From: Alicyclobacillus sp. ALC3
GTDB lineage: Bacteria > Bacillota > Bacilli > Alicyclobacillales > Alicyclobacillaceae
Reading direction: 5' to 3'
NCBI RefSeq assembly: GCF_028751195.1
Contig: NZ_CP066784.1
Location: forward strand, 1,054,001-1,118,000
DNA length: 64,000 nucleotides
Made by a program: the position numbers and the translations under genes. Below are positions 11,854 through 42,510 of this stretch, in pieces. Position 1 is the first letter of the stretch, and each line of letters opens with the position of its first letter. The notes beneath the pieces are model-generated. The model ran no database searches and was not told the DNA's origin. It was given only the letters and a program-made list of their open reading frames with translations.

Positions 11854-12507
11854 ATGCTGTACACGGCACTCGGCGATTCCATTACAGCGGGCGAACTGGC
11901 CACGTCGCCTGCGCGTGCATATCCAAGTCTAGTCACACAAAATCTCCAGCAACATCGCCGTGGCTGGTTTGGAGAGGTACTGGCGGAACCTGGCTGGACA
12001 AGTCAAACACTGAATGCCGCGGTTTGGGAAAACGGCCCCTTACCGCTACGAAAGTCTAATGTCATCACCATTTGGGTCGGAGGCGACAACTTAGCTGACG
12101 CAGCACTCGCCATGCTGAATGGAGCGCGGCCGGCGATTCTGAAACGTTCGCTTGCAGGGTATACCCGAAGTTTACGGGCTCTGATAGTGGGCATTCGACG
12201 AGTGAGCCGTGCGGGGGTCGTAGTCTGCACACAGTACAATCCATTTCCAAACACGCCCCTCGCCGCTCAGGGTATTGCCGCATTGAACGAGGCCACACGC
12301 GCCGTAGCAGCTTCAACCAACGCTGCAGTTGCTCCGGTTGACGTGTGGTTTGCGGGGCAACAAGCGAGACTGATCGCTGGCTACCGAACAGGCAGAGTGC
12401 AGGACGTATTTCGGGCAGTGCCCGTGCCGATTCACCCAAACAACCGCGGGCACCGAGTCATCGCAGACGGACTTACGCCTATCGTGGCAAATGCATACAC
12501 ACCTTGA
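11854..12507 (+). CDS. SGNH/GDSL-family hydrolase
   Basis: A 217-residue esterase-like protein. Block I is GDSITAGE near the N terminus with the catalytic serine, and block V is IHPNNRGH with the catalytic His. Block III reads GGDN instead of the usual GxND, a swap that could affect the oxyanion hole. Spore-formers have related cortex or germination phospholipases (LipC type), and the position directly before sigK fits a sporulation role, but this is inference. The ATG at 11854 sits five bases after AGGTGA; the GTG at 11845 overlaps that site. The stop is 10 bases before a sigma-E/K-like -10 element. Confidence 0.8.
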   Translation: MLYTALGDSITAGELATSPARAYPSLVTQNLQQHRRGWFGEVLAEPGWTSQTLNAAVWENGPLPLRKSNVITIWVGGDNLADAALAMLNGARPAILKRSLAGYTRSLRALIVGIRRVSRAGVVVCTQYNPFPNTPLAAQGIAALNEATRAVAASTNAAVAPVDVWFAGQQARLIAGYRTGRVQDVFRAVPVPIHPNNRGHRVIADGLTPIVANAYTP

Positions 12508-12517
12508 GCCCAACTCT

Positions 12518-12526
12518 CATACAGTA
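12518..12526 (+). promoter_or_regulatory. Possible sigma-E/sigma-K -10 element for sigK
   Basis: CATACAGTA matches the mother-cell sigma-factor -10 pattern CATANNNTA. It lies 34 bases before the sigK start and just after the upstream stop. A sigma-K-type AC lies at a plausible -35 distance; the sigma-E -35 is not clear. sigK in other species is transcribed by these sigma factors, so the fit is sensible but not proven. Confidence 0.45.
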
Positions 12527-12559
12527 CGACATCCCGCATTCTGCACGGAGGTGAACCGC

Positions 12560-13114
12560 TTGCTGTCTTTGGCGCTCGCCGTGACATCTTTGGTGCGCAA
12601 CTTTACCCTGGTGACAGGGTATGTAAACCAGTCGTTTCCTCAGCCGCTCAACAAGGAACAGGAACGAGAGTGTTTCGAACGTTGGCAGAACGGCGACCGC
12701 GAAGCATACCACACGCTAATCGAACACAACCTCCGCCTGGTTGCGCACGTAGCCAAAAAGTTTGATTCGAGCGGGATCGACCACGACGACTTGATCTCCA
12801 TCGGCAGTGTCGGTCTCATTAAGGCCGTGGAAACCTATCAGCCCACAAAGGGCACCAAATTCGCTACCTACGCAGCCCGTTGCATTCAGAACGAGATCCT
12901 ACTGTCAAAGGGAACTGAGAAATATCCATCTTTTATGATTCATCCACAATTCCATCGCATTGCCTACGAGTCGGGAGTACCGAATCCCCCATCAATGGAA
13001 CGGACGCTGGTCGGCAGCCCCGTCCTCCACGTTGGATACATCGGCTGCCAACCAAGTTCCCTTCTAGCCTTTTCATTTGACGCTCCCCGTTCCCACGGCT
13101 CATGTTCCGTTTGA
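12560..13114 (+). CDS. sigK: Pro-sigma-K, N-terminal fragment (gene interrupted)
   Basis: The 5' part of the late mother-cell sigma factor. The TTG at 12560 follows GGAGGTGA. Residues 1-20 are the hydrophobic pro-sequence (LALAVTSLVRNFTLVTG), with the likely SpoIVFB cleavage point before Tyr21-Val. Region 1.2/2 follows: SFPQPL, LIEHNLRLVAHVAKKF, DLISIGSVGLIKAVETY and TKFATYAARCIQNEIL. After the codons for N-E-I-L (to about 12900) the family match stops. The frame runs on for about 70 unrelated residues to a stop at 13114, so the unrearranged gene cannot give a full sigma factor. The break is at the same conserved residues where B. subtilis sigK is split by skin. The next piece resumes at 36202. 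Confidence 0.93.
   Translation: MLSLALAVTSLVRNFTLVTGYVNQSFPQPLNKEQERECFERWQNGDREAYHTLIEHNLRLVAHVAKKFDSSGIDHDDLISIGSVGLIKAVETYQPTKGTKFATYAARCIQNEILLSKGTEKYPSFMIHPQFHRIAYESGVPNPPSMERTLVGSPVLHVGYIGCQPSSLLAFSFDAPRSHGSCSV
12893..12900 (+). other. Left attachment site of element 1 (in sigK)
   Basis: GAGATCCT at the N-E-I-L codons matches GAGATTCT at 36202-36209 except for one base. Joining left and right sequence anywhere within this core gives Glu-Ile-Leu-Met in frame, the sequence expected in sigma-K. The true crossover dinucleotide cannot be fixed by eye. Confidence 0.7.
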
Positions 13115-19035: not shown

Positions 19036-19737
19036 TCAAACCAGAACCTGCTTCATCCATTCCACGATGCTTCCTCCAAAGGTTTCGCGGATGTGATCCG
19101 TATAGTCCATTGCACTCACCTCACCATGATTGAGCAGAACAGCCATATCCAATAGTGGTTCGACTTCGTCCACCTCGTGAGTCGACAAGACTACAGTTTG
19201 ATTCTCTAGGTCGATGAACGAAATAAGTCCCTTCAAGATGGACTGTCGTACCAATGGGTCGAGTCCCGATAGCGGTTCGTCCATGACAATCAGCGGCACT
19301 TGACGGGATACAGCCAGGACAATTTTCAGACGACCGAGGTTCCCCTTGGAGAGGGTTCTAACGCGTTGATTGCCATCCAGTTGCATAAATGTAAGCATCT
19401 CTGTTGCCTTGGCAACGTTAAAGTCTGCATAGATACCAGCATAATAGTTAACCATCTGACGAACGGTATAAAAGCCGTATACTGCACCCGTGTCCGAAAG
19501 GTAGGATACCTGTCTCGCCATCATCCGATTGATCCGTTTGTTCTGAAACAGGACTTGACCGTCATTCGGATGTAGGAGTCCTGTCATCAGTTTGAGTGTT
19601 GTGGTTTTCCCACTGCCATTCGGACCAATGAGTCCAATGACCATTCCTGTGGGCAAATCAAAGGACAGGTGCCGCACAGCCTCCTTCAGTTGATATCGTT
19701 TCGAGACGTTTTGGAAGGAAACAATCGTGTTTTCCAT
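19036..19737 (-). CDS. ABC transporter ATPase (YtrB-like)
   Basis: A 233-residue ATPase with Walker A GPNGSGKTT, signature LSKGNLGRLK, Walker B LIVMDEPLSGLDP and switch His in LSTHEVDE. It is short, like YtrB-type subunits paired with GntR regulators. It is the third gene of the operon permease-gntR-ATPase. GGAGGTTGCC precedes the ATG at 19737. In Bacillus such operons respond to cell-wall antibiotics; here that is inference. Confidence 0.9.
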   Translation of the reverse strand: MENTIVSFQNVSKRYQLKEAVRHLSFDLPTGMVIGLIGPNGSGKTTTLKLMTGLLHPNDGQVLFQNKRINRMMARQVSYLSDTGAVYGFYTVRQMVNYYAGIYADFNVAKATEMLTFMQLDGNQRVRTLSKGNLGRLKIVLAVSRQVPLIVMDEPLSGLDPLVRQSILKGLISFIDLENQTVVLSTHEVDEVEPLLDMAVLLNHGEVSAMDYTDHIRETFGGSIVEWMKQVLV

Positions 19738-19756
19738 GGCAACCTCCAGTGGAGAG

Positions 19757-20134
19757 TTATTGTTCGAACAAGTCCAAGGTTTGACGGTCTTGCAGGACAC
19801 GTAAAACTTCTTCCAACGTAAATCCCATCTCCCGGATATTGCTGAGAAATGCGGTCACATGACTCGCCATCAGTTCGTCTCGAAGCTCTCGAAGACGACC
19901 TTCGTCACTAGTCACAAAGGTCCCCTGCCCTCTCCGTGTCTCAGCTACAGTAATTCTCTCCAATTCGGTGTATACCCGCTGAATTGTATTGGGATTAACA
20001 CCCACCTTAACCGCCATGTCACGCATAGACGGCAACTTTTCTCCAGGAGAGAGCTCACCGCGTACAATTTGCCTGCAGAGTCTCTGGACCAACTGGAGGT
20101 AGATGGGCTGTGACGAGGTGAATTCCCCCACCAT
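19757..20134 (-). CDS. GntR-family regulator, YtrA type
   Basis: A 125-residue regulator. The winged helix contains PIYLQLVQRLCRQIVRGEL and LPSMRDMAVKVGVNPNTIQR, typical of the small YtrA subfamily with only a short dimerisation tail (about 75-125). GGAGGTGTAATA precedes the ATG at 20134, which excludes the much longer open frame upstream. It lies between permease and ATPase genes. Twin palindromes upstream of the operon are its likely binding site. Confidence 0.9.
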   Translation of the reverse strand: MVGEFTSSQPIYLQLVQRLCRQIVRGELSPGEKLPSMRDMAVKVGVNPNTIQRVYTELERITVAETRRGQGTFVTSDEGRLRELRDELMASHVTAFLSNIREMGFTLEEVLRVLQDRQTLDLFEQ

Positions 20135-20136
20135 TA

Positions 20137-21015
20137 TTACACCTCCATATAGCGTTCGATTAGGAGTCCAGCGATGAAGAACAGGAGGACAACCAAGATG
20201 GCATTGAACACGAAATAGCCGGATACAATCGCTGCCGACGTGTGCCCCGGAAAGAGCGCACGAACATCGGATGGAAACAGGTTCAAGACAGGAAAACTTC
20301 CCCATCCAAACAGTTGTTTATAGAGAGTCGTGTTCTTCAGCGCACCAAGTCCCCAGATAGCACCCAGCACGACTCCAAATCCAACTATCCAGCTGAACTT
20401 CTTTAGTTGATTTCGAACGGCGTACACTGACATATATATCAATGTGACCCACACAGATACATACAATCCGTAACACAGAAGCAACAACATTACATAAAAT
20501 TCAATCCGTGGGAGCTGAGCCACCAAAATCGAGATATGTCGCGGGGACAGGTTCACCAGAGTTATTCCATTCTGCGTATTCAACGTGACTCCGTTACCGC
20601 TTCCATGAGTCTGACTCTGATTGTGCAACGGTGGCAAGGCATGAGCAATGTTAACGGAGTGGAACAGTGCGAGCGCCAGCGAGTAACAAACTACAAAATA
20701 CATGAGTGCGCCTATGAGACTGCTGATGAGTTTAGAACCAAGCATTGCCCAGCCCGACGTAGGGGTATGCAACCACAGAGGCGCGGTTCCTTTGATTTCT
20801 TTGTTTATCCCACGAGCCATTTGTGCCGGGAGCGCCACAAGAGGCGTGAACATCAGGATAACCCCCACTGTGAGCGGAGCCCATGCATGTAAGATGCCCA
20901 AGGAACTACCTGTGAGAACTCCTGCAGTTGCAATCACGGCGACTCCCAGGAAACCAAACCACTGGTTCTTCAAAATCCAAATATCCTTCTTAAGAACGGT
21001 AACCCATACCGACAT
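20137..21015 (-). CDS. ABC-2 type permease of the GntR-controlled operon
   Basis: A 292-residue protein with about six membrane segments, beginning just after a positively charged N terminus (VTVLKKDIWILKNQWFGFLG). A larger extracellular loop (about residues 115-165) contains NQSQTHGSGNG. It is the first gene of the operon, and its stop is two bases before the gntR start. AGGGGTGAAGTCGC precedes the ATG. Confidence 0.82.
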   Translation of the reverse strand: MSVWVTVLKKDIWILKNQWFGFLGVAVIATAGVLTGSSLGILHAWAPLTVGVILMFTPLVALPAQMARGINKEIKGTAPLWLHTPTSGWAMLGSKLISSLIGALMYFVVCYSLALALFHSVNIAHALPPLHNQSQTHGSGNGVTLNTQNGITLVNLSPRHISILVAQLPRIEFYVMLLLLCYGLYVSVWVTLIYMSVYAVRNQLKKFSWIVGFGVVLGAIWGLGALKNTTLYKQLFGWGSFPVLNLFPSDVRALFPGHTSAAIVSGYFVFNAILVVLLFFIAGLLIERYMEV

Positions 21016-21030
21016 GCGACTTCACCCCTT

Positions 21031-21079
21031 GTATTAGTGCACTAATCGAATAGTGCACTAATACACAATGAGGTGTCAA
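21031..21079 (-). promoter_or_regulatory. GntR (YtrA-type) operator and promoter
   Basis: GTATTAGTGCACTA (21031-21044) and TAGTGCACTAATAC (21051-21064) form a perfect 14-bp inverted repeat with a 6-base spacer. Each arm itself contains the palindrome TAGTGCACTA. A TTGACA -35 lies at 21079-21074 on the minus strand, so the operator covers the -10 and start region. The arrangement predicts autorepression of the permease-gntR-ATPase operon. Confidence 0.85.
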
Positions 21080-21117
21080 GCGATGAATTTTCAACAAGAA
21101 CGGTATCATCTCGTATC

Positions 21118-21470
21118 CTACAAAGTCACTATTTCAATCGTCTCCCCTTGTTCGAAAACCCTGACTTCCTTGATGACCGTCCGCAGTAAGTCCCGTCCCG
21201 CTTCCGCACCTAAGTCTTGCACTTCTACACTCGACAGCGAGTCCCAAATTGTCGTCAACCTAGAACGCCGGTACTCAGCTTCTTCGCGCACATCTTTTCC
21301 AGTTATTTGTCAAGCCGCCGCGTTAGGTCTAGCTTCCTTTGATTCAAACCTCGTCTTTCGTTCTGCTCACCCTTTAGTTTTTCGCATATGTCCTGTTCAT
21401 CAATGTCGGGGTCACTGAGGAAGTTCAATAAACGGCGACCCACGACTTCTAGACGCTCAGCTCTGTCAGA
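21118..21470 (-). pseudogene. Remnant of a second SpoIVCA-like recombinase (C-terminal part)
   Basis: About 350 bases align closely with the last part of the intact recombinase gene at 34486-34845, including the same terminal Val-Thr-Leu-stop. The frame is broken by small deletions, for example near 21300. The N-terminal catalytic part is absent. The orientation is the same as the intact gene. It indicates that another element of the same kind once ended here, or that the recombinase was duplicated. Confidence 0.85.
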
Positions 21471-21550
21471 CATACCTGGTAAATACGCGCCTTTTCATAC
21501 CTAACGTGGCCGCCTAGATACCACATCACCGCTCAAAACCAATCTTTCGA

Positions 21551-22204
21551 CTACTGATACTGCATAGTAACAACACCTGAATAGTGGGACAAACTTGATT
21601 GGTTAATGTCTAAGATGCTCACTTCTGTCGTTGTTCGTTGACCCGTCGCTTCAATGAAACTATCTACTTTATCGAATAGTAACATCCCAGGAAGCGACAG
21701 TGCCTTCGTCCGGTAATGCATGGGAATCGTAACAGAAGGTTTTAGTTGTTGAACCACTTTGGCGCCGTCCTGTCCGTTTAAGGTCATTCTGCCTCCGACC
21801 GGGATCATGAGAATGTCAACGTTGTCGATGTCGTGTACCTGCTCCGCCGTTAATAAATGACCTAAATCTCCACAATGGCAGATTGTCAAACCATCCACGG
21901 CAAAGCGAAAGACAATGTTCTCTCCCCTCTTCTTCCCGTGTACATTGTCGTGGTAGGTCTTGAACCCCTTAACGGATACACCGTCCCGCTGATACTCTTT
22001 TGGTTCATTAACCAGCAGATAGTCTCCCGTAGCCACCCGAATTTTATTGTGATCGCCGTGATCATGCGTTACTGCCACGATCTCCGTTTGGATTGGCTTC
22101 GGCATCCGATATCGGATCATTCGATCAAATGGGTCAATTAGAATGCGCACCCCTGCTTCTGAAGTCAATAAAAATGAAGATTGACCAAACCACTTGATTT
22201 GCAT
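21551..22204 (-). CDS. MBL-fold metal-dependent hydrolase (UlaG-like)
   Basis: A 217-residue protein of the UPF0173/UlaG-like group of metallo-beta-lactamase folds. It starts with IKWFGQSSFLL, has the metal motif THDHGDHN near residue 47, CHCGDLGH in the middle, MIPVGG and PMHYRT. The natural substrate is unknown; relatives hydrolyse lactones or phosphodiesters. GGGTGATGAC precedes the ATG at 22204. It stands between the recombinase remnant and the MFS gene. Confidence 0.88.
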   Translation of the reverse strand: MQIKWFGQSSFLLTSEAGVRILIDPFDRMIRYRMPKPIQTEIVAVTHDHGDHNKIRVATGDYLLVNEPKEYQRDGVSVKGFKTYHDNVHGKKRGENIVFRFAVDGLTICHCGDLGHLLTAEQVHDIDNVDILMIPVGGRMTLNGQDGAKVVQQLKPSVTIPMHYRTKALSLPGMLLFDKVDSFIEATGQRTTTEVSILDINQSSLSHYSGVVTMQYQ

Positions 22205-22247
22205 GTCATCACCCTATCCATGTTTTCGGTGGCGTTTGGTGCGCAGT

Positions 22248-23639
22248 TCACGACGCGGCAGTTGCTGATTCTTTCCTAACTGTCTTAAGGCGACGGTCAG
22301 CAATGGTCATGATTAGCGCGATGGCACTTATCGTGGTCATAACGATAGCAATATGATGGAGACCGCCATCCGACACTCTTGTGTGAAAGACAATGCCAAT
22401 TAGTGCAGAGGAAGCAATCGAACCAATGTACCCGAAGGTACGGAGTAACCCTGAAGCTGTCCCGATCTGGTCCGAAGTAACCTGTAGGTACAAAGCGGTC
22501 TGATTGGCACTGGCCATCGTACCCATTGTGACCCCGAACACTGCGGTAATGAGCAAGATCCAGATAATTGAGGTGCTCGTGGTGAGAAAAAGCACCCCAA
22601 ATGAGGCAATGATGGACGAGCCAGCGCAAACAATGAGTGGTCCGCGCACTAAGTTTCTCTTCGAAACTGGAGCTACAATTAAAGCCGAAATCATGCTCAT
22701 GGGCAGAATCAGAAGACCGGCTTCAAGTGATGAGGTTCCACGTGCAGCACCGATCCATTCGGTGACGCCATACAGCACGGTGTAGATGCACAACGTAATT
22801 AGTGAAAATCGAGTGTAGGTACGGGCTAACGCTAAGTTAGCGGCAAGCATACGTACATCGATGAAAGGATGGTCTGTTCGCAGTTCCCACCAAATGAGTA
22901 GAGCGCCGAGTACAACAGCAAGACCAATGGCAACCCAGTCAGGATGGGGAAATGAGAACAGGAATACCATCAGTGCGTTGATGGTTGCAGCGAATCCCAC
23001 GATGCCCGTGATATCAATGCGAGATAAAATCCCACGAACTGTCCGGGAACCCGTGATAGCCCCGTCTCTGGGAATCCAAAGAGTAGCCATGACAAAGGCG
23101 ACGATGGCAAAGGGGATATTCACCAGAAATATGGTTCGCCATCCCCATGCATCCACGAGCACGCCGCCAATAGGGAGTCCCACTGCTGCCGTGATGACCC
23201 CAGCAATCTGAAGTGCACCAAGCACGTTTCCTGGCGGTTTCGACATTCCGACCGATTCCGCACGTCTACGAATGAGAAGCATGGCAGATGGATAGGCGGT
23301 GGAAGTCCCAATGCCAATTAGAATTCGTGATACGATCAACATAGTCAAGTCACGTCCGAAACCGCCGAGAAGCCCCCCTAAAAACACCATGACAATACCT
23401 GTTAGAAAAACCCTACGAGGACCAAACTCCGTGGAAAGCTTTCCGGCAGTGGGTTGAGCGATTGAACTTGCTAGATAGAGAGCGGTTACTAGTATTGTGG
23501 TTTGAGCAACTGAAACACGCATAAATGCCGAGATTGGCACTAATGCGGTGGCTAGCATTGAGCTATTGATTGGGTTCAGCGTTGACCCCATATACATGGG
23601 TGCGACGAATCGCCATGAGAATGGGTTCTCACTCGCCAT
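22248..23639 (-). CDS. MFS efflux transporter
   Basis: A 463-residue protein with 12-14 hydrophobic segments. Motif A-like sequence is in GKLSTEFGPRRVF between helices 2 and 3, and the motif C-like GALQIAGVITAAVGLPIGG suggests a drug:proton antiporter (DHA2-like). The substrate is not predictable. AGGAGTGAAG lies ahead of the ATG. It is divergent from a TetR gene with shared tandem palindromes, so expression is probably induced by the exported compound. Confidence 0.88.
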   Translation of the reverse strand: MASENPFSWRFVAPMYMGSTLNPINSSMLATALVPISAFMRVSVAQTTILVTALYLASSIAQPTAGKLSTEFGPRRVFLTGIVMVFLGGLLGGFGRDLTMLIVSRILIGIGTSTAYPSAMLLIRRRAESVGMSKPPGNVLGALQIAGVITAAVGLPIGGVLVDAWGWRTIFLVNIPFAIVAFVMATLWIPRDGAITGSRTVRGILSRIDITGIVGFAATINALMVFLFSFPHPDWVAIGLAVVLGALLIWWELRTDHPFIDVRMLAANLALARTYTRFSLITLCIYTVLYGVTEWIGAARGTSSLEAGLLILPMSMISALIVAPVSKRNLVRGPLIVCAGSSIIASFGVLFLTTSTSIIWILLITAVFGVTMGTMASANQTALYLQVTSDQIGTASGLLRTFGYIGSIASSALIGIVFHTRVSDGGLHHIAIVMTTISAIALIMTIADRRLKTVRKESATAAS

Positions 23640-23819
23640 GCTTTACTTCACTCCTGTTGTCTGCAACTGATGTGGGGACTACTCATCACCTACCCAATCC
23701 CCGACATCAAGACATGGTCTTCTTCAAGATGCAATACGGCACGGTTTGCCTATCGATTGACTGGGAATGCGGATGAACTCAGGTTGTTGTACCTACCTCA
23801 ATACTCGGCTATATTAAAT

Positions 23820-23865
23820 GGAGATATCTCCTTTTAATATAAGTGGAGATTTCTCCGTTTGTCAA
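23820..23865. promoter_or_regulatory. Tandem TetR operators over the MFS promoter
   Basis: GGAGATATCTCC (23820-23831) and GGAGATTTCTCC (23845-23856) are two near-identical 12-bp palindromes, centres 25 bases apart. Between and around them on the minus strand lie TTGACA (23865-23860) and TATATT (23841-23836) with an 18-base spacer: the MFS promoter. The tetR gene starts to the right. Both directions could be repressed from here. Confidence 0.82.
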
Positions 23866-23906
23866 GCGTGAACGATTTCGCGCAAGGTGCGGAAAGGACA
23901 ATACAA

Positions 23907-24533
23907 ATGAACGAAAGGGATAGAAGCCATACCCGTATAGAACGTCGTGATGCAATTGAGAATCGACAGCGTATATTGCACGCGGCACTTCGATTATTCG
24001 ATCAACATGGTGTGGAAAAAGTGAGCATGAATCAAATCGCCGCAGAAGCTCAGGTCGGTCCCGGAACCCTGTATCGGCGGTACGGCGACAAAAGTGAGCT
24101 ATGTTTGGACTTAATCAAGGACAACGTTGATTTGCTTTTTGAGGACATTGCGTCGTACTTGAAACGAAACAATGATGAACCCCCTAGTCGACGATTGGAG
24201 GAGGTTATCCGCTTTTTTATTCGTTTCCGTGAGAGTAAGGCACAGTTGCTCGCGGGTGTCGAAGATTCCGCCATGCCATTAACAAAGCGGCATAGCTTGC
24301 GGACGCAAAGTCCGATATATAACGAATTGCATCAACTGTTCGTACAATTGTTTAGTGAAATGTCCGTCGCCGACCCGAACCACCCAGACAGTGTCTTTAG
24401 AGCCGATATGTTGCTAACGGCTTTAAACCGGGAATCCTATACATTTCTGCGAGAAGTGCGAGGTTTTACCCCAGAAGCTGTACTAGAGCAAATCTGTTTA
24501 ACGTTTATTAAGTCCGCCGAACCCTTTGATTGA
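23907..24533 (+). CDS. TetR-family repressor of the MFS pump
   Basis: A 208-residue regulator. A basic N-terminal tail is followed by the helix-turn-helix (about 15-65): ILHAALRLFDQHGVEKVSMN and EAQVGPGTLYRRYGDKSEL. The C-terminal helical domain would bind the inducer. The ATG at 23907 with AAAGGA upstream is preferred to an earlier frame opening at 23859, which would include the operator. It is divergent from the MFS gene. Confidence 0.88.
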   Translation: MNERDRSHTRIERRDAIENRQRILHAALRLFDQHGVEKVSMNQIAAEAQVGPGTLYRRYGDKSELCLDLIKDNVDLLFEDIASYLKRNNDEPPSRRLEEVIRFFIRFRESKAQLLAGVEDSAMPLTKRHSLRTQSPIYNELHQLFVQLFSEMSVADPNHPDSVFRADMLLTALNRESYTFLREVRGFTPEAVLEQICLTFIKSAEPFD

Positions 24534-27414: not shown

Positions 27415-28473
27415 TCAATAGAGGTTCTCTTGTCGAAAGTAGTTTGGCTTCACAACTGTGTCGTCATAATAGCGATGAAATATGTGTGTGGTTGCCGGAG
27501 AAACTGGGGGAATCAGCCATGTCCAGTCTCCCGTGAGTTCACGTCCCTCGTCCATTTCAATCTGCTCAAACCGTTCAAACTGCTTGGCAGCAGTATGATG
27601 ATCAACGATAGTTACGCCACGTTCCTTAAACGACTGCAAGACTGCAATATTTAACTCGATGAGAGCCCTGTCCTTCCATAGTGACGCGTCCGATTTAATG
27701 TCGAGCCCTAGTAAAGACGCTACCTTCGGCAGCATGTTGTAGCGATTCAAATCTGCAAAGTTACGAGCACCGATTTCCGTCTCCATATACCAACCATTGA
27801 AAGGAGCTGCTGCGAATCGAAGTCCCCCGATTTCCAACGCCATATCGGAAATCATGGGTACCGTGTACCACTTAAGCCCTAGCCCTTCAAATTGCGGATA
27901 ATCAGGATGATGGATATCGACTTCCAAAACCAAATCGTCGGGAATCGAAAACCAAACGGGTTGCTCGCCCTCGATTTGCACGACTAGGGGCAGAACATCA
28001 AAGGGCGTCCGCTTGCCTCTCCACCCCAATTCTTCACAGAGACGCGTAATCGCAATCGAATGCGGGTCTCCAATAACACCACGTTCGGTTTCGTAACCCG
28101 CGTAGCGGAGGAGTTGGTGGTTCAAAATGCGCACCTTCGGATTCAATACGGTAATCGTAGGACGTATCTTTCCTTCGTTCGTGGCAAATTCAATATGACG
28201 ATACAGAGCATTTACTACCTTTTCCGGCGTGCTCAGAGATCTCTCATCAAAAACGTTCAGTGACTTCCAAAACAACCGCCCGATACAACGATTGCTATTT
28301 CTCCACGCCATTCGCGCTCCATGTTCCAGTTCTTCGTATGTAAGCTCGTACGTTGCTCTTCGCATCAAACTTTCTTGAATTGCGGTTAATCTATCTTGAG
28401 CATCTTCGGCACTTTTTCCAAGTTCATGGTAGCACTTCGCGATAAACTCTCGTGCTTCATCGTACATTCGCAT
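27415..28473 (-). CDS. nos: Nitric oxide synthase, oxygenase domain
   Basis: Oxidises L-arginine to citrulline and NO using heme and a pterin-type cofactor; bacterial forms lack the reductase domain and borrow electrons from cellular flavoproteins. The 352-residue length fits. The heme thiolate is Cys63 in [14 protein letters not shown]. The arginine-binding Glu is in [12 protein letters not shown], and the pterin and dimer region is [18 protein letters not shown]. In Bacillus NO protects against oxidative stress and antibiotics. AAGGAG nine bases upstream supports 28473. It sits on the sigK element beside the germination operon. Confidence 0.96.
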
Positions 28474-28581
28474 GACAAATTACTCCTTCGTTTAACTCGG
28501 TGCATGGCATTCCGTTCAATTAGTGTACTCTATTTACATTGAACCAACCTAGATTGCCAATTCCAGAAGGAGGTTCATAGC

Positions 28582-28683
28582 TTGCCGAAGGATGTGATAA
28601 TTTTACTTCCATACCATCCTACTAAAGCTGGCCACTCGCTGGCTTCAAATGCCTGCGCCGAATATAAAACACCATCAGTTTGA
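28582..28683 (+). other. Orphan gene start (33 codons) with strong ribosome binding site
   Basis: AAGGAGG (28567-28573) is followed eight bases later by TTG and MPKDVIILLPYHPTKAG. The reading frame enters the 3' end of the convergent gerB gene after 13 codons and stops at 28683. It may be the severed 5' end of a gene cut off when the germination operon was inserted. No homology is recognised. Confidence 0.35.
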
Positions 28684-29725
28684 CAGTGGGCTCAATGATA
28701 AGATACAACCAACTTAGGGGCACCAAAAGGGTTATCACAATCCAGTCCCAGACTTGTTGATTCGGGATGAGTTGAAAAATTACCAGGACTATCACCGCGT
28801 ATCCCAAGACGAACCACTTCTCGCTTGACTTGTTGAGCTGCAGAAGCCGTCGCGACAACTCCGATATTCCCCATAAGTGATTCGCATAGAAGACCGCTTG
28901 AAACAGCGTTGCCACGAATATTAGGGAAACACCAAAGCGCTGGATAATAAATCCTTGCACCTGAACCAGTTGCAACACGAAGTCAACCGGGTGAGCCAAG
29001 ACGCGTACCCCCTCATACCCTACGACTCTCAGGATGACAACGAACACACCCGCTGCGTAGAGGCAACCAAAACCCGCAGCTACCAAAGGTAGCCAAATTG
29101 CGTTTTGCTTTCTGTGATCAAAATACGGATTTACCATCAGATACAGGTTTATCCCCAAGAACAGCGGCAAAAGCAATCCAGCCACTGAAAATGACCGTGA
29201 AACACTGACCGGATGCAGCGTAACCCCCGTCCATGTCCCCCGAAAGTACGCTAAAGCAAAGGACGTTCCAAGAACCAACATGACGACTGGGAACGTGATC
29301 GAGGCAACGCGTGCAATCGTTTCTAGGCCGTAGAGCGCTCCAACAACGGATACGAGTGCAAGTGCCACACCTGTCGCCAAGTGAGGCGTATTGGGAAGTA
29401 TTGCTTTTACAGTTATCGCAAATGAATATAGGCTCACAGCTATAAATAGCAGATAACCCGGAATAAACGACGTGCCGACAATCCTGCCAATAAATTTTCC
29501 AAACACTAAAGTGAGCATCTCCACACCAGTCTGCGTGCGGAGATTCGTCGTGAGTAAACCGTGAACCAAAGCACTGAACAAAGCGAAAAAACAGACGCCA
29601 AAGACTGCCCACTGTCCATCAATTCCACCGTAAAAAGCTGCATAACGTGGGTAAACCCAAAAGAGCAGAGGCAGAATACCGGTAGATACGACGCAGATAA
29701 CTTGATACATGGACAGTTTGTACAC
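28622..29725 (-). CDS. GerAB-type germinant receptor B subunit
   Basis: A 367-residue, ten-segment membrane protein of the spore germination GerAB/APC-like family. It is the likely ligand-binding subunit of a germinant receptor in the spore inner membrane. Landmarks include LPLLFWVYPRYAAFYGG near the N terminus and a C-terminal NQQVWDWI. The start is GTG at 29725, overlapping the gerC stop as TAGTG, with GGGGGG eight bases before. Operon order here is A-C-B. Such operons are made in the forespore under sigma-G. Confidence 0.88.
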   Translation of the reverse strand: MYKLSMYQVICVVSTGILPLLFWVYPRYAAFYGGIDGQWAVFGVCFFALFSALVHGLLTTNLRTQTGVEMLTLVFGKFIGRIVGTSFIPGYLLFIAVSLYSFAITVKAILPNTPHLATGVALALVSVVGALYGLETIARVASITFPVVMLVLGTSFALAYFRGTWTGVTLHPVSVSRSFSVAGLLLPLFLGINLYLMVNPYFDHRKQNAIWLPLVAAGFGCLYAAGVFVVILRVVGYEGVRVLAHPVDFVLQLVQVQGFIIQRFGVSLIFVATLFQAVFYANHLWGISELSRRLLQLNKSSEKWFVLGYAVIVLVIFQLIPNQQVWDWIVITLLVPLSWLYLIIEPTVKLMVFYIRRRHLKPASGQL

Positions 29726-30870
29726 TAAATCAGCCCCCCCTTGCTCCTGATTGCGACCTTCACTTGAATGTCGAGCTTGGCATGTCCGAACATCTGGCTC
29801 CACTGTTGCTTTAATCGCGCTTCTTCTTCTGGATGCGCCTGCAGATAATTTCTCCCGAACCCAACCACATCGGTCTGCTGCTGTTGCAGTTTTACAACCA
29901 TGTCCGTTAACTGTTGTGTCAGATAAATCGATGCCTGCAACTGCAGTTCATTGATGTTCGTTGGCGGTAATGGCTTGGGTGAAGGGTCCACATGCTTCGC
30001 TAAGGTGCCAGCGACCGTGACGTCATCGGCCAGTACAACCTCACTCTTCTTCTTGATACAGCGAACGTGACTTTTTGCCCGCATGTCGGTTAATGTCATG
30101 ACCCCCTGCCCAATTGGGATATCGAACGACATGTCGCGAACTTTACCCATCAAGAGATTCACGTACAACGTTTCATTACGGCTTAACGCAAGTGCCGGTT
30201 TGTTGTTGAGATACACTTCTTCACCTGTCATGGCTAGTGTCTTCTTACCTTTGTCATCTATCTCTTCGGTCGTTAAAATGGGTATCATCGGGACAACACC
30301 AAGTTGCGTCGTATCGCGCCAGTACTCCCACAATTGGCGTCGAACGACGTACCCATGCTGCTTCACTTTTACTGATTTTTCGACAAAATTCATCGGAGCT
30401 GACTCCGATACTTCTGTAGCCATCACTTTTTCAGCACTACCCGGTGTCATGAAGATATAAGCGAGCCGGTTAATCTTCGTCAAGCGCATCAGTTGCCCTA
30501 ACACGCTATCCATGGTTTCTCCTGACAGTTGACTGCTCAAAACGATGACGCGCAGTTGGGCCACATCAGCTTGACGATCCATTTTCGTTTGGATAGTCCT
30601 GATTGCCTCCATCAACGAGTAAGATTCCCCAGATAGGTCTTGAAACTTGGATGTTTCAGCAGAACCTTCCCCCTGTGATTGCCCATTATGGAGAATAGGC
30701 ACCTGGATCGTCACTCTGATTTTCTCAGGGTCATCATGCGCAGGATCAATGCCAAGTCCAATCATTGCGGCGCGCTTATTAATCGCTTCATAATCCCAAC
30801 ATCCAGGTAAAAAAATGAGCGCCGCACAGGTCAACACGATGGCAAGCGACCGCTGCATTATCGATTTCAT
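29725..30870 (-). CDS. GerAC-type germinant receptor lipoprotein
   Basis: A 381-residue lipoprotein. The signal peptide ends in the lipobox LPGC (cysteine near residue 24), followed by WDYEAINKRAAMIGLGID, the standard GerC opening. Three GerC domains follow, with the last containing VGFGRNYLQAHPEE and MFGHAKLDIQVKVAIRSKG. It would be diacylglyceryl-modified on the outer face of the spore inner membrane. Its ATG overlaps the gerA stop by four bases. Confidence 0.92.
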   Translation of the reverse strand: MKSIMQRSLAIVLTCAALIFLPGCWDYEAINKRAAMIGLGIDPAHDDPEKIRVTIQVPILHNGQSQGEGSAETSKFQDLSGESYSLMEAIRTIQTKMDRQADVAQLRVIVLSSQLSGETMDSVLGQLMRLTKINRLAYIFMTPGSAEKVMATEVSESAPMNFVEKSVKVKQHGYVVRRQLWEYWRDTTQLGVVPMIPILTTEEIDDKGKKTLAMTGEEVYLNNKPALALSRNETLYVNLLMGKVRDMSFDIPIGQGVMTLTDMRAKSHVRCIKKKSEVVLADDVTVAGTLAKHVDPSPKPLPPTNINELQLQASIYLTQQLTDMVVKLQQQQTDVVGFGRNYLQAHPEEEARLKQQWSQMFGHAKLDIQVKVAIRSKGGLI

Positions 30871-32513
30871 GTCTTACTCCGTTTGCGCGGAAATTTCGGC
30901 CCCCGAGGTACTTCTAACATCGGATGCTGCACCGGATCTGTATAGTCCGCGGCACGCGTATCCTCTTGGTTGTGATAATGGGCTGCGCGCTTGTCCAGCA
31001 TCGGGATGGGGGCACGAAAAATACCGTCCAGAAAAAAGTCTCGCCAGTGCTCCCCTGATAGCGGATCAAGGTATGAGATTCCAAACGACTTCAGGGATGC
31101 AACATGAAATAAAATCAGCGTGACAACCAACATGACACCGTAGAAGCCAAACACGGACGCTCCAATGATGTTGGTCCACATGAGAAGCCGCAGTGTTGTC
31201 GAAAATTCATAACTGGGAAGAACAAACACAGATACGGCAGTGAGCGCAATAATCACAATCAAAATGTTACTGAAGAGCCCTGCTTCTACAGCGGCCTGTC
31301 CCAGGACCAATCCACCCACAATGCCGATTGTCTGCCCCATCACCTTGGGCATTCGTAAGGCCGCCTCCCGAATAATCTCCATGACAATTTGCATGATGAC
31401 GACTTCGGTGGCGGCGTTAAACGGCACGCCCTCACGGGACTTTGCGATTGCCAGCGCGAGCGTTTGCGGCATCAATTCGGGGTTAAAATCAACGAAGGCA
31501 ATGTATAGCGCGGGAAGATAAAATGAAAGAGTAAACGCGATCATACGTAGCCACCGTATAATCGTTGCCTCAACCCAACTGTGTTGGTCGTCTTCCATAG
31601 TCTGAAAAAAATCGATAACTGTCCCTGGCACCAGCAGGCCTGCCGGGTCCCCATCGACGAGAATCAACACTTTCCCTTGCCCAACTTCCTTCACACAGTT
31701 GTCCACTCGTTGTGTTGCCCGTACCAAAGGGAAGACGGTCCAGTGATTGTCCACTATGCGCTGTTCCAGTGTTGCGCTTCCAGTGAGTTTATCGACGTGC
31801 ACCGCCTGAATTCGCTTGATCACGGTATCCACCAAATTCGGGTTAGCGACATCATGTTCGTATAGCACTGCCACCCGGTTGCGGCTCCGGTAGCCGACCT
31901 GCAATTCCTTCACAGTGAGTGCGTCACTAGTCAGCGCCCAGCGCATGATGCCGATATTTACGTCGACGTTTTCGATGAACGCGACTTGAGGACCGCGCGT
32001 ACTCGATTCCAAGAGCGGTGGTTCCACCGCACGGTGTGGCAGCTTTCTTTCGCCCATTGTGAGAGCAACATTCAAGCCGTCAATAAGCAAGACCAGCACG
32101 CCACGAGATAGCGCCTCGCGAATTTCCCACAAGTTGTTCATGAAGATGGCGTTGCCAATCGGAACCACCCTTCTCATCAAGTAGAAGGGCAGTTCCCTGA
32201 CGGACAGGCGAGGATAATGATGGTCCTGTAACGATTGCATCAGCGTTTCCACCTGGGTCTGGTCGGCAAGCGTTTGGTAATACACAATGACGGCTTCCTG
32301 CTCTTTGACAACCGTTCTGCGCACCACAAAGTCATCACTGGTGCCTGCAGTTTCCCGGATATATTTCAACGTATGACGCAAGTCACCCGTGATCTTGGGA
32401 GCGTCCCGATAATCTGGCACCTTCGGCTTGGGTCTTTCCATGCTTCGGTGCTTGTAGTTTCTTCGTTTTAAGGGATTAAACAAGTTTAACAAAAGGTCCG
32501 CTCCCCGCTTCAC
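30867..32513 (-). CDS. GerAA-type germinant receptor A subunit
   Basis: A 548-residue protein with the GerA layout: a soluble N-terminal domain (about 50-300, starting with YIRETAGTSDDFVVRR), conserved DGDPAGLLVPGTVIDFFQ and EDDQHSWVEATIIRWLR, then about five membrane helices from residue 320. The C-terminal tail (about 475-548) is hydrophilic and basic. It forms the receptor with the B and C proteins. The GTG at 32513 has only AGGA upstream. Start choice is moderate; later ATG codons are possible. Confidence 0.9.
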   Translation of the reverse strand: MKRGADLLLNLFNPLKRRNYKHRSMERPKPKVPDYRDAPKITGDLRHTLKYIRETAGTSDDFVVRRTVVKEQEAVIVYYQTLADQTQVETLMQSLQDHHYPRLSVRELPFYLMRRVVPIGNAIFMNNLWEIREALSRGVLVLLIDGLNVALTMGERKLPHRAVEPPLLESSTRGPQVAFIENVDVNIGIMRWALTSDALTVKELQVGYRSRNRVAVLYEHDVANPNLVDTVIKRIQAVHVDKLTGSATLEQRIVDNHWTVFPLVRATQRVDNCVKEVGQGKVLILVDGDPAGLLVPGTVIDFFQTMEDDQHSWVEATIIRWLRMIAFTLSFYLPALYIAFVDFNPELMPQTLALAIAKSREGVPFNAATEVVIMQIVMEIIREAALRMPKVMGQTIGIVGGLVLGQAAVEAGLFSNILIVIIALTAVSVFVLPSYEFSTTLRLLMWTNIIGASVFGFYGVMLVVTLILFHVASLKSFGISYLDPLSGEHWRDFFLDGIFRAPIPMLDKRAAHYHNQEDTRAADYTDPVQHPMLEVPRGPKFPRKRSKT

Positions 32514-32527
32514 GAATGTCCTGGAGA

Positions 32528-32646
32528 GAGCGTTTCCTTGGTTGCCACGATTTATGTATGCAACCCTTTAAATGGAACACACTGTAAAATATCCGTTCGC
32601 TGCTTAACCAATGTACCGCAACGAGCGTTTCCTTGAGTGCCAACGA
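32528..32646. repeat. Paired 22-base repeats between gerA and the divergent gene
   Basis: GAGCGTTTCCTTG followed by TTGCCACGA at 32528-32550 recurs as GAGCGTTTCCTTG followed by AGTGCCAACGA at 32623-32646. TGTCCTG (about 32517) and CAGGACA (32649-32655) flank the pair in inverted orientation. The repeats lie in the divergent promoter region and could bind a common regulator; none is known. Confidence 0.5.
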
Positions 32647-32675
32647 CTCAGGACAGATGAGGGCAGGAGTGTACA

Positions 32676-33419
32676 ATGATTGAGCAAGATGAGGTCATCA
32701 AAGTCTACCTTGAAGTATTAAATGGGATACGTGCGAGATTCCCCAATCATTTCTTTATCAGTGTGGACGGCCGACAACGGCTCATCATCATTACGCGTTT
32801 TCTGATTGAGGACTACTTGCAGATTCCTGTAGTCGAAATACCGGACCAGGTCTATGCAGATTTGCTATGGAAGCATCGGCTGCGTCCCCCAGCCAATATA
32901 CAGGGATGGAATTTCAGTCAACTGATGGAGCACTGTTACCCGGAAGAAATCAAGGCATGGCATTTTCGTCAGGTATCCAATGGGTACTGGCAAAAGGAAA
33001 AAGGACACAAGCGCCTCATTGAAGCTGTCAAGTATGTCATCGAAGAAGAGTGTCAAATCCCCATCTCCGACATTCCAAGCCGCATCACCTATGAGTTCTT
33101 CAAGCAACATAATTTATACGGCGCTTTTAACCAATTTGGACAATCGACATACCAAATCATTAACGCGGCTTACCCTGGTCTGTTTCATCCCTGGCAATTT
33201 CACACCGTCCCGATGAACTACTGGAGAGACCCGCAGAACGTTGAAAAAGCGATGAATTGGTTACTATTTGACATTTTAAAGGTAAACTCGTACGCCGAGT
33301 CACTGGCCATCATCAAAATAAAGCACTTTGTAGAGAATCAACTTCAAGGGTTACTCCTAAGAGCATTTCATCATCGACTCTATAACGCTGTCGAGTGGAT
33401 CTCGACGCGTTCGGAGTGA
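32676..33419 (+). CDS. Conserved hypothetical with repeated IP-motif units
   Basis: A 247-residue soluble protein. Two similar units can be seen: ITRFLIEDYLQIPVVEIP with DLLWKHRL, then VKYVIEEECQIPISDIP with EFFKQHNL. Each is followed by a block like MEHCYPEEIKAWHF or NAAYPGLFHPWQF. This resembles an uncharacterised Bacillales family (possibly DUF4046). GGAG precedes the ATG. It is divergent from gerA. The function is unknown; location suggests sporulation or germination but does not show it. Confidence 0.7.
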   Translation: MIEQDEVIKVYLEVLNGIRARFPNHFFISVDGRQRLIIITRFLIEDYLQIPVVEIPDQVYADLLWKHRLRPPANIQGWNFSQLMEHCYPEEIKAWHFRQVSNGYWQKEKGHKRLIEAVKYVIEEECQIPISDIPSRITYEFFKQHNLYGAFNQFGQSTYQIINAAYPGLFHPWQFHTVPMNYWRDPQNVEKAMNWLLFDILKVNSYAESLAIIKIKHFVENQLQGLLLRAFHHRLYNAVEWISTRSE

Positions 33420-33610
33420 TGAAACTTGTTCAGCATCAAGGTTTAGCTAAATCCAGCGACATGCCCCCCACATAGGCCGTTCATTCAACCTACGGAATAA
33501 GACTCTTTCCCAAGATACGGACAAGTGCGCGGCAGCCAACCGGAATATGGACACACTCATCGAGAATAGAGTAAATTGCGACAGATTCAAGAGGGAAGTG
33601 AGGTAATAAA

Positions 33611-33865
33611 TTGCCAGCATTCATCATGATAGCCGGACCGGTATCTGTCAGTACGCCTCAGCAAAGCGCGCTAGGTGTATCCATTGGCATCAACAGTGCA
33701 GGCAACTGGGATGCAAATATGAAGTTCAACACTGCCGAAGGCGGTAATTTTGGTGTGATGAGTTCCATCATGAGCGGGTTCAACATAATGCTAGATAATT
33801 TTGAGGTGATCGACGGCGTAATCAACACCAATGACGTCAAAGTCGCGTCTACGGTGGAGTTCTAG
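33611..33865 (+). CDS. Small protein, possibly spore-associated
   Basis: An 84-residue protein from a TTG at 33611 preceded by GTGAGG. It is rich in Gly, Ser, Asn and Val (SALGVSIGINSAGNWDANMK, GNFGVMSSIMSGFNIM) with few charges, and starts with MPA as small GerP-type proteins do. The resemblance to GerPF/GerPA is weak. A perfect 19-bp hairpin terminates it. The neighbours are gerA on one side and a SASP gene on the other. Confidence 0.55.
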   Translation: MPAFIMIAGPVSVSTPQQSALGVSIGINSAGNWDANMKFNTAEGGNFGVMSSIMSGFNIMLDNFEVIDGVINTNDVKVASTVEF

Positions 33866-33918
33866 CGTGAGTGACCAGCCATGCTTCGAGGCTAGCCAAG
33901 GTATACTTCGGTCTACAG

Positions 33919-33960
33919 GGACATGCAAAAGGCGCACGGTTGTGCGCCTTTTGCATGTCC
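33919..33960. terminator. Perfect 19-bp hairpin between convergent genes
   Basis: GGACATGCAAAAGGCGCAC (33919-33937) pairs without mismatch with 33942-33960 around a GGTT loop. It lies between the plus-strand small gene and the minus-strand SASP gene, so it can act in both directions. The stem is longer than usual for a terminator. Confidence 0.75.
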
Positions 33961-34029
33961 GCTTGATTCCACCTCTGTCATGTCGCTTCGACACACAGCG
34001 CCGCGAGCGGAGCATTCACCGTTCACGCT

Positions 34030-34251
34030 CTAGTGAAAGTGTCCAGTTCCCAACTGCTCCTCCGCAATTTGGACCAACCGCCGGGTGATGTGCCCCCCAA
34101 TGGTTCCTGTATCGCGGGTCGTCATCGTACCCCAATATCCGCTTTCAGGTACAGAGATCCCCAGTTCCCGAGCTACCTCGTACTTCATTTGATCCAAAGC
34201 GTGCATCGCTTGCGGAACCACTGGAGTATTTCGTTGCTGTCCAAGTGCCAT
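34030..34251 (-). CDS. Alpha/beta-type small acid-soluble spore protein
   Basis: A 73-residue SASP that coats and protects DNA in the dormant spore and is degraded at germination. The family's two conserved segments are present: MKYEVARELGIS (with the GPR protease site region) and SGYWGTMTTRDTGTIGGHIT followed by RRLVQIAEEQL. AAAGGAG precedes the ATG. A sigma-G-like promoter lies 30-60 bases upstream, as expected for forespore expression. It is carried within the sigK element. Confidence 0.95.
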   Translation of the reverse strand: MALGQQRNTPVVPQAMHALDQMKYEVARELGISVPESGYWGTMTTRDTGTIGGHITRRLVQIAEEQLGTGHFH

Positions 34252-34485: not shown

Positions 34486-36006
34486 TTACAAAGTCACTAT
34501 CTCAATCCTTTGCCCTTGTTCGAAAACCCTGATTTCCTTGATTACCGTCCGCAGTAAGTCACGTCCAGCTTGCGCACTTATGTCGTGGAACTCTGTACTC
34601 GCAAGCGAGCCCCAAATTGCCATCAACATAGACCGCCGGTGCTCCGCTTCCGTCCTCACATCTTTGCTACTCAATTCATCAAGTCGACGTGTTAAGTCTA
34701 GCTTCTTTTGATTCAAACCCCGTCTTTCGTTCTGAACATCCTTTAGTTTTTCGCGTATGTCCTGTTCATCAATATCGGGGTCACTGAGGAAATTCATTAG
34801 GCGTCGATGCACAACCTCTAGGCGCTCAAGCTCCGCCTGAATGTTTTCCAATTGGCATTGTTCACTCGACAACTGCGGATTGCGTTCCAATTCCGCAATG
34901 AGCTCTTCGTCAGGCGCTCGTATCCAGCTAAGAGTCGTATCCCACACTTGAAGTTCAAGCTCATCACACTTAATATGTGTTCCACACCCCGGGTTTTTTG
35001 CTCCCACCGTTGCTTTGCGGTCACTGTAGTAATACTGTTCTCTCCCCCAAGCCTTCCCCTTCCGACCTGTCATAGTGTTACCGCAGTCCCCACACCGCAG
35101 CAGTCCACTCAACATATAGGTGCGTTTGCCCGCCCCAGCCCATCTTCGTCTCGACTCTGCCAGCAGTGACTGGGCGTAATAAAACTGGTCGGACTCAATA
35201 ATGGCCGGAATCGGCAACCTAATCCATTCTTCTTTTGGTCGCGGTTTTTGCACAATTCTCTCCTCGGGTGGGCGGTAGCGATTCCCGAGCATCCCTTCCG
35301 TGTTCCACTTGTTTTGATAGAACTCGCCGATGTACGACCGGTTCATCAGCATCTGACGCACAACCTGCCGATGAAAGACGCCGACACCTCTCTTTGTGGG
35401 CACGCCTAGTTCCGTTAAGTATTTGGCGATTCCATTAATCCCCTGAACTCTGCCATTGGAATTGGTGAACAAGTCGAAGATGAGCTTTACGATGGTCGCC
35501 TCGCGAGCATTGACGACGAACTGTTCTTTCTCGGAATCGAAGTCATAGCCGTAGATGTGAAAATCCCGTAATACCCTCCCTTGCCGTGCCTTCTCGCGCC
35601 TCCCCCGTGACATGCGTTCGTTGATTTTAGCTTTTTCGAACTGGCTAATTGCGCCGCGCATCTGATAGAACAGCTGTCCTTCCGGTGTCCTAGCGTACTC
35701 ACCGTTCACGAACATTAGCTCGGCACGTGATTCGATTTCATCGGAGATGATGAGTTGATTCATGAGTTTGCGTGAGAGACGGTCGGGATCAAGACACACG
35801 ACCTTGTGGACAAGCCCACTGCGAATATCTTCACGCAGCTTGGAGAGTTGCGGTCGATCGAGAAACTCACCAGATATCCCCTCATCTACGTACTTTAGGA
35901 CATCATCTGTCCCTGCCTTCTTCTTGCATTCCCGGAGCTGGTCCGCCAAGCTGAATCCGTGCTTCGCCTGCTCCTCGGTCGACACCCGCGCGTAGACTGC
36001 TATCAT
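34486..36006 (-). CDS. spoIVCA: SpoIVCA-like large serine recombinase
   Basis: A 506-residue site-specific recombinase expected to excise element 1 and rejoin sigK. The catalytic domain (1-150) has nucleophile Ser9 in YARVSTEEQ and arginines in DPDRLSRKLMNQLI. The recombinase domain holds FHRQVVRQMLMNRSYIGE, and a zinc-ribbon CGDCGNTMTGRKGK and a leucine-spaced coiled coil (about 390-450) follow. Close wording to B. subtilis SpoIVCA is seen along the whole length, especially EGISGEFLDRP and FVNGEYARTPEGQLF. One expected zinc Cys is replaced: YYYSDRK where relatives have a Cys, although GCG is kept. It starts about 195 bases from the right attachment site. Confidence 0.93.
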   Translation of the reverse strand: MIAVYARVSTEEQAKHGFSLADQLRECKKKAGTDDVLKYVDEGISGEFLDRPQLSKLREDIRSGLVHKVVCLDPDRLSRKLMNQLIISDEIESRAELMFVNGEYARTPEGQLFYQMRGAISQFEKAKINERMSRGRREKARQGRVLRDFHIYGYDFDSEKEQFVVNAREATIVKLIFDLFTNSNGRVQGINGIAKYLTELGVPTKRGVGVFHRQVVRQMLMNRSYIGEFYQNKWNTEGMLGNRYRPPEERIVQKPRPKEEWIRLPIPAIIESDQFYYAQSLLAESRRRWAGAGKRTYMLSGLLRCGDCGNTMTGRKGKAWGREQYYYSDRKATVGAKNPGCGTHIKCDELELQVWDTTLSWIRAPDEELIAELERNPQLSSEQCQLENIQAELERLEVVHRRLMNFLSDPDIDEQDIREKLKDVQNERRGLNQKKLDLTRRLDELSSKDVRTEAEHRRSMLMAIWGSLASTEFHDISAQAGRDLLRTVIKEIRVFEQGQRIEIVTL

Positions 36007-36201: not shown

Positions 36202-36209
36202 GAGATTCT
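36202..36209 (+). other. Right attachment site of element 1 (in sigK)
   Basis: GAGATTCT, followed by GATG, differs from the left copy at 12893-12900 in one base. To its right the sigK frame resumes; to its left is recombinase upstream sequence. Confidence 0.7.
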
Positions 36210-36318
36210 GATGCAACTGCGCGCGCAAAAGAAGACACGCAAGGACGTGTCGTTGTACAGCCCGATTGGCACAGATAAGGAAGGCAACGAGATTACATTG
36301 AGTAATATGACGTCGTGA
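36202..36318 (+). pseudogene. sigK: Middle fragment of sigK, interrupted again
   Basis: From 36202 the codons give [20 protein letters not shown] then [13 protein letters not shown], the segment that directly follows the N-terminal fragment in sigma-K proteins. The match ends near 36294 after E-I-T-L; SNMTS and a stop follow instead of the expected I-D-I-L. Only about 30 codons of sigK are therefore present here. Sigma regions 3 and 4 (for example the D-D-R-E-K-E-V block) are not found anywhere in the window. Either a second element interrupts the gene here or the gene was truncated. Confidence 0.9.
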
Positions 36319-41129: not shown

Positions 41130-41340
41130 CCAAGTTGCCGCGGTGTCGGCCACCAGGATCGCGCTCTTGATTTCCTTCTGCGTGACCTTCACACCGAGGT
41201 CCTGCGCCGCGAGTTGCCCGAGTGTGCTGTGCTCGTAATGCGTTGCCATGCGTCAGGCTGCATCTTCAGGTAAGATTCAACCGCAGCGGCAGCTCCGTCC
41301 GAGAGATGAGTGCCTGTCGACGCGATTGTGGGCACCGGTG
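41130..41340 (-). pseudogene. Remnants of phage lysis genes
   Basis: The 41167-41249 part encodes a fragment (LAAQDLGVKVTQKEIKSAI) related to the C-terminal holin-like protein segment seen again at 42.4 kb. Around 41283-41335 the sequence resembles the 3' end of the lysin gene at 45.24 kb, sharing GACGCGATTGTGGGC. Neither has a complete frame. The order matches the intact lysis cassette, suggesting a decayed duplicate. Confidence 0.55.
41167..41209. repeat. 43-bp direct repeat, copy 1
   Basis: Identical over 43 bases to 42420-42462. Both copies lie within holin-like gene remnants. They could mark a duplication endpoint or recombine with each other. Confidence 0.85.
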
Positions 41341-42299: not shown

Positions 42300-42510
42300 T
42301 AGGCTGTCGTTGTTTTGGCAGTTGCGTTCGGAAGCTCGCTGGCAAACTTCGCCGCCGCCGCGATGACCGGAACTTACGGGATCGCCTGCGCTACCGCATC
42401 GGCTGTTTGCAACGCGTCTTTGATTTCCTTCTGCGTGACCTTCACACCGAGGTCCTGCGCCGTCGTCGCGATGTGCGACGTGATGGCATTGACCTCGGAT
42501 GCTCCATGTA
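42300..42510 (-). pseudogene. Holin-like gene remnant
   Basis: Minus-strand codons give IATTAQDLGVKVTQKEIKDA, LQTADAVAQAIP, a stop codon, then VPVIAAAAKFASELPNATAK. The pattern parallels the C terminus of the intact protein at 44695-45222 (VGITVTSAQVTAVVQ and so on). The internal stop and missing N terminus mark it as dead. It contains copy 2 of the 43-bp repeat (42420-42462). Confidence 0.65.

Follow-up and report, generated by a model that had tools for sequence, protein, structure and literature searches.

A truncated second recombinase gene inside a putative sigK intervening element of Alicyclobacillus sp. ALC3

Skin elements of Bacillus subtilis, Clostridioides difficile and other bacteria split sigK, carry a large serine recombinase of the SpoIVCA or CD1231 type beside one half of the gene, and have their att core within coding sequence (PMC5025042). 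In C. difficile the element is excised by CD1231 together with the directionality factor CD1234 (PMC5025042). For integrative elements it is well established that a newcomer can integrate at the attR of a decayed resident, or accrete onto it at an att site common to both (PMC5704250). The element discussed here (element 1) has the split sigK, the adjacent large serine recombinase and the att core in coding sequence in common with the skin elements, and its removal would likewise restore the sigK frame.

Element 1 measures 23,309 bp and lies in the window, that is, the 64,000-nucleotide stretch analysed (contig NZ_CP066784.1, positions 1,054,001 to 1,118,000) of a 4.94-Mb chromosome. It splits sigK, with cores at 12893 and 36202 (Table 1). 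When the flanks are joined without the element, the two pieces of sigK form one open SigK frame. The att sites are paired, with a common core and element-side arms, and both ends are similar to the ends known from other sigK elements; a large serine recombinase gene of its own is found near one end. From these features we class element 1 as a new putative sigK intervening (skin-type) element. By analogy with the skin elements, its intact recombinase is presumed to cut out all 23.3 kb in the mother cell; a directionality factor was not identified in element 1.

Table 1. Coordinates of the features in and around element 1 (positions within the window)
Feature	Position	Strand	Basis or remark
sigK 5′ piece, open frame	12491..12892	+	Sigma70_r2 and SigK models; actual start possibly further inside
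Left att core GAGATCCTACTG, inside sigK	12893..12904	+	Arm comparison, profile scan
ABC transporter and GntR regulator operon, left of the relic	19036..21015	-	G004 and G026, among others, have related genes
Relic: 3′ end of a second large serine recombinase gene, 5′-truncated, frameshifted, stop kept	21118..21463	-	82.7% nucleotide identity to 34487-34833; codon analysis
Junction of relic and metallohydrolase-MFS-TetR module	21464..21487	.	Relic homology stops at 21463; homology to L137 (G025) reaches 21488
Metallohydrolase	21551-22204	-	Right-hand module (21551..24533), on relatives' chromosomes
MFS transporter	22248-23639	-	Right-hand module, on relatives' chromosomes
TetR regulator	23859-24533	+	Right-hand module, on relatives' chromosomes
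Intact large serine recombinase of element 1, 506 aa	34486..36006	-	Pfam Resolvase, Recombinase, Zn_ribbon_recom
sigK middle piece, cut again by element 2	36202..36304	+	tblastn; joined frame
Right att core GAGATTCTGATG, inside sigK	36202..36213	+	Arm comparison, profile scan

Recombinases of this family adjoin sigK halves in numerous Bacilli, Paenibacillus, Aneurinibacillus and Ferroacidibacillus among them. A class-wide search found a close member in 46 of 399 genomes, the nearest relative of the intact recombinase among them being 61% identical. The sigK-linked recombinase of one bacterium of the same family (G036) is 49.3% identical to the query, the same figure as for the integrase of phage MMB025, from which we take G036 to be probably Alicyclobacillus acidoterrestris. 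At the same sigK site another member of the bacterial family (G017) has a 4.7-kb element with a related recombinase and the same arrangement but different cargo, from which we surmise that the cargo at this site is exchangeable. In the window sigK is preceded by an esterase-like gene, and a relative of that gene adjoins the G017 element (L088:575-5284). None of the sigK elements fetched from other genomes contains the cargo of element 1.

The sigK gene of this genome is in three pieces, since a second element of about 50.9 kb (element 2) splits it again approximately 100 bp after site A, at GNEIT; the piece following the one at 36202-36304 is found at L041:3183-3467 (G000:C1:1141183-1141467). 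Two excisions would be needed to restore sigK. Near its right end element 2 encodes a large serine recombinase (G000:C1:1139801-1140943), which is 28% identical to that of element 1. It also contains an exact 43-bp direct repeat (41167-41209 and 42420-42462), perhaps two decayed copies of one gene tail. In other genomes (L012/L098, L037, L052, L099, L015, L051) sigK seems to be interrupted at as many as three different positions (near residue 87 of the query, EIL/MHL and GNEI/TL), in some of them at more than one site at once, and the gene looks like a multi-site hotspot.

Within element 1, besides its recombinase gene, lies the relic of a second gene of this kind. Comparison of positions 21050-21550 with the window (blastn) gave 347 aligned columns with 82.7% identity to 34487-34833 (E = 2e-98; 2.8e-96 when the whole window was compared with itself), and the local alignment score of 393 is far above the maximum of 31 among 200 shuffles. 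The homology spans 21119-21463, corresponding to about 350 bases at the 3′ end of the intact gene. Both sequences are on the minus strand, and their stop codons are aligned, TAG at 21118-21120 with TAA at 34486-34488. The initial annotation had described a match to the recombinase C-terminus at 21118-21470, in the same orientation and including the stop codon, which is congruent with these data. Chance similarity, or a conserved domain in an unrelated gene, we regard as refuted: across 347 bp, as far as the stop codon, 83% of the nucleotides are identical (E about 1e-96), in a region where other members of the family reach at most 36% protein identity.

The description of this sequence as frame-broken and devoid of the catalytic part likewise proved correct. 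Reading by codons reveals one real frameshift, caused by the loss of 1 nt near 21303-21309. The raw alignment shows a further pair of 1-nt gaps, but these are more plausibly substitutions, since the codons read without gaps yield DVREE against DVRTE. The first 390 or so codons are gone, and what remains corresponds approximately to residues 392-506 of the intact protein. The catalytic N-terminal (resolvase) domain, the recombinase domain and the zinc ribbon by which large serine recombinases are recognised (residues 2-356 of the intact protein) are all missing, and no Pfam model matches the approximately 114 C-terminal residues of the relic. A tblastn search of the whole window with the full recombinase revealed no credible further fragment, the N-terminal part included. 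Two small open reading frames (57 and 56 aa) were considered as functional genes in this region and rejected, being the two halves of the one frameshifted frame. The relic thus reads as a pseudogene fragment of the large serine recombinase family and not as a working member of it. It is unable to make a recombinase and, having neither a catalytic part nor an open frame, is not ascribed any function.

In the protein tree the relic and the intact gene are sisters (support 0.97), with branch lengths of 0.17 and 0.14, respectively. Over the region of the relic the two share 76% of their amino acids, the next best relative 36%, and no closer DNA relative of the relic was found among 59 genomes of the order or in phage and plasmid collections. 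The divergence bears the mark of selection on the protein: dS is 0.45 and dN 0.14 (dN/dS 0.30), there are no in-frame stops, and the differences fall 19, 10 and 26 times on the first, second and third codon positions. Each of the two sequences keeps 18 of 46 columns conserved in the family. Simulated neutral decay since the split, with one copy dead from the start, gave a joint P of about 0.004 and a simulation in which 25-50% of the relic branch was neutral fits well, for a short stretch, with mutation rates taken as equal on both branches, and with gene conversion from the intact gene as a process that could mimic constraint in the relic. We conclude that the relic was once a working second recombinase, truncated later, rather than a copy dead on arrival. 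Since it diverged under protein constraint before its truncation, a second recombinase lineage did exist, and this favours a composite of two elements.

The relic is positioned at a seam between two cargo modules. Like the intact gene, it has its 3′ end turned towards the cargo to its left. The TetR-MFS-metallohydrolase module starts no more than 25 bp away on the right, and the end of the relic homology together with the reach of the G025 module homology confines the junction between them. This module shows approximately 80% nucleotide homology to ordinary chromosomal loci in three relatives (G019, G025 and G040), and in the 12-20 kb fetched from these genomes no recombinase of the relic's family lies beside it. 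On the left, a 36-bp near-perfect palindrome (21030-21065) stands before the ABC-GntR operon and is possibly the operator of its GntR regulator. To the left and to the right alike, the cargo consists of chromosome-type genes in a mosaic, with matches to various relatives at various loci, so that the seam need not be the boundary between two elements. Further to the right (27415-34251) are genes for a nitric oxide synthase oxygenase and an alpha/beta SASP as well as an operon for a GerA-type germinant receptor; the cargo thus includes spore-related genes, although excision of the element is expected in the mother cell alone.

An earlier right end near 21.5-22.7 kb had been proposed in the initial annotation. 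Our data do not support it, as there is no att site in that interval and the DNA from 21488 rightwards is the TetR-MFS-metallohydrolase module, so that no old right end can remain there. Scans for an att core and arms through 20.9-24.6 kb, including the region near 21.5-23 kb where a degenerate sigK core had been thought possible, yielded nothing above chance except a single high left-arm score at 23301. This candidate was rejected as an att arm: it is MFS coding sequence, and the chromosomal homologues score as high or higher. Of the marks of tandem accretion, the remnant of a second integrase in the same orientation is present and an internal att site between the elements is absent. The left and right parts of element 1 do not differ in G+C content (both about 0.48), and no genome was found in which just one of these two parts is present at sigK.

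The reading that best accommodates these observations, and to which we give somewhat better than an even chance, is that element 1 grew by the tandem accretion of two sigK-specific elements and lost the internal att site. The left part (about 12.9-21.1 kb) would represent an older element, the recombinase at its right end being the present relic; a newer, related element, with the intact recombinase, would form the right part (about 21.5-36.2 kb) and would have joined the older one at the att site they shared. The internal att site and, from its 5′ side, three quarters of the older recombinase may then have been lost by deletion or rearrangement, and the surviving recombinase would now excise the composite as one unit in the mother cell. 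On this account the relic is what is left, at the 3′ end, of another large serine recombinase of the sigK-element family, one that used to function. The tandem insertion and the deletion are steps that we infer. Speaking for them are the sisterhood of the two genes, the constraint, the common orientation, the module homologues free of recombinases, the link of the family to sigK and the precedent of a known process; the missing internal att site, the equal G+C, the want of a genome with a single part and the mosaic cargo speak against them. The composite of at least two elements suggested in the initial annotation accordingly gains from the second lineage that diverged under constraint, but not from any att remnant at the proposed joint.

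That the intact gene is the closest relative of the relic anywhere in the data, and that no internal att site exists, would also be expected had the recombinase gene been duplicated inside element 1, both copies working for a while until the left one was truncated during cargo exchange. We consider this rather unlikely. A duplicate dead from the start is rejected by the simulation of neutral decay, two redundant recombinases would have had to stay constrained while diverging to a dS of 0.45, and no homology of the flanks was found outside the gene. The tail of a recombinase from a related element might instead have arrived with cargo, by homologous or illegitimate recombination and without tandem integration at sigK. 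Such capture suits the mosaic cargo with its matches to different relatives at different loci, as well as the location of the relic exactly at the seam between modules; it does not predict that orientation and cargo arrangement agree with those of the intact gene, and neither neighbouring module adjoins a recombinase of this family in the relatives examined. We hold it to be a little more doubtful again than duplication.

The relic offers a small glimpse of the way in which an island excised during development may grow at a gene whose restoration is needed in every sporulating mother cell. For much of the time since its lineage separated the second recombinase was at work, and its loss came later. 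If the loads merged under one recombinase and the internal att site is gone, excision of element 1 would stay a single event. A broader view, which we offer tentatively and think somewhat less probable than the accretion itself, is that sigK has been colonised repeatedly by related islands with exchangeable host-type cargo, and that here an older working recombinase was displaced by a close newcomer, their loads being merged into one unit excised by a single recombinase in sporulation.

Among the open-access papers listed by literature searches, none describes a second-recombinase relic in a sigK element in its title or abstract. Unlike the skin elements (PMC5025042), element 1 has chromosome-like cargo (nitric oxide synthase, germinant receptor, SASP, transporters) and a relic of this kind inside. 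Alicyclobacillus phage MMB025, a prophage in sigK (PMC13141910), shares with element 1 the sigK target, a SpoIVCA-like integrase (49% identical to the intact recombinase) and probably the bacterial family of the host; it is a 105-kb infectious phage, whereas no phage genes were recognised among the proteins of element 1 that were examined. In CIME accretion (PMC5704250), as in element 1, remains of a resident integrase lie beside an element with an intact integrase. The CIME keeps both att sites, whereas element 1 has no internal one left, and it is for this reason that accretion here can only be inferred. Accretion accompanied by decay of the resident integrase is already known, and the relic would be one more example of it, an ordinary island fossil that introduces no new principle.
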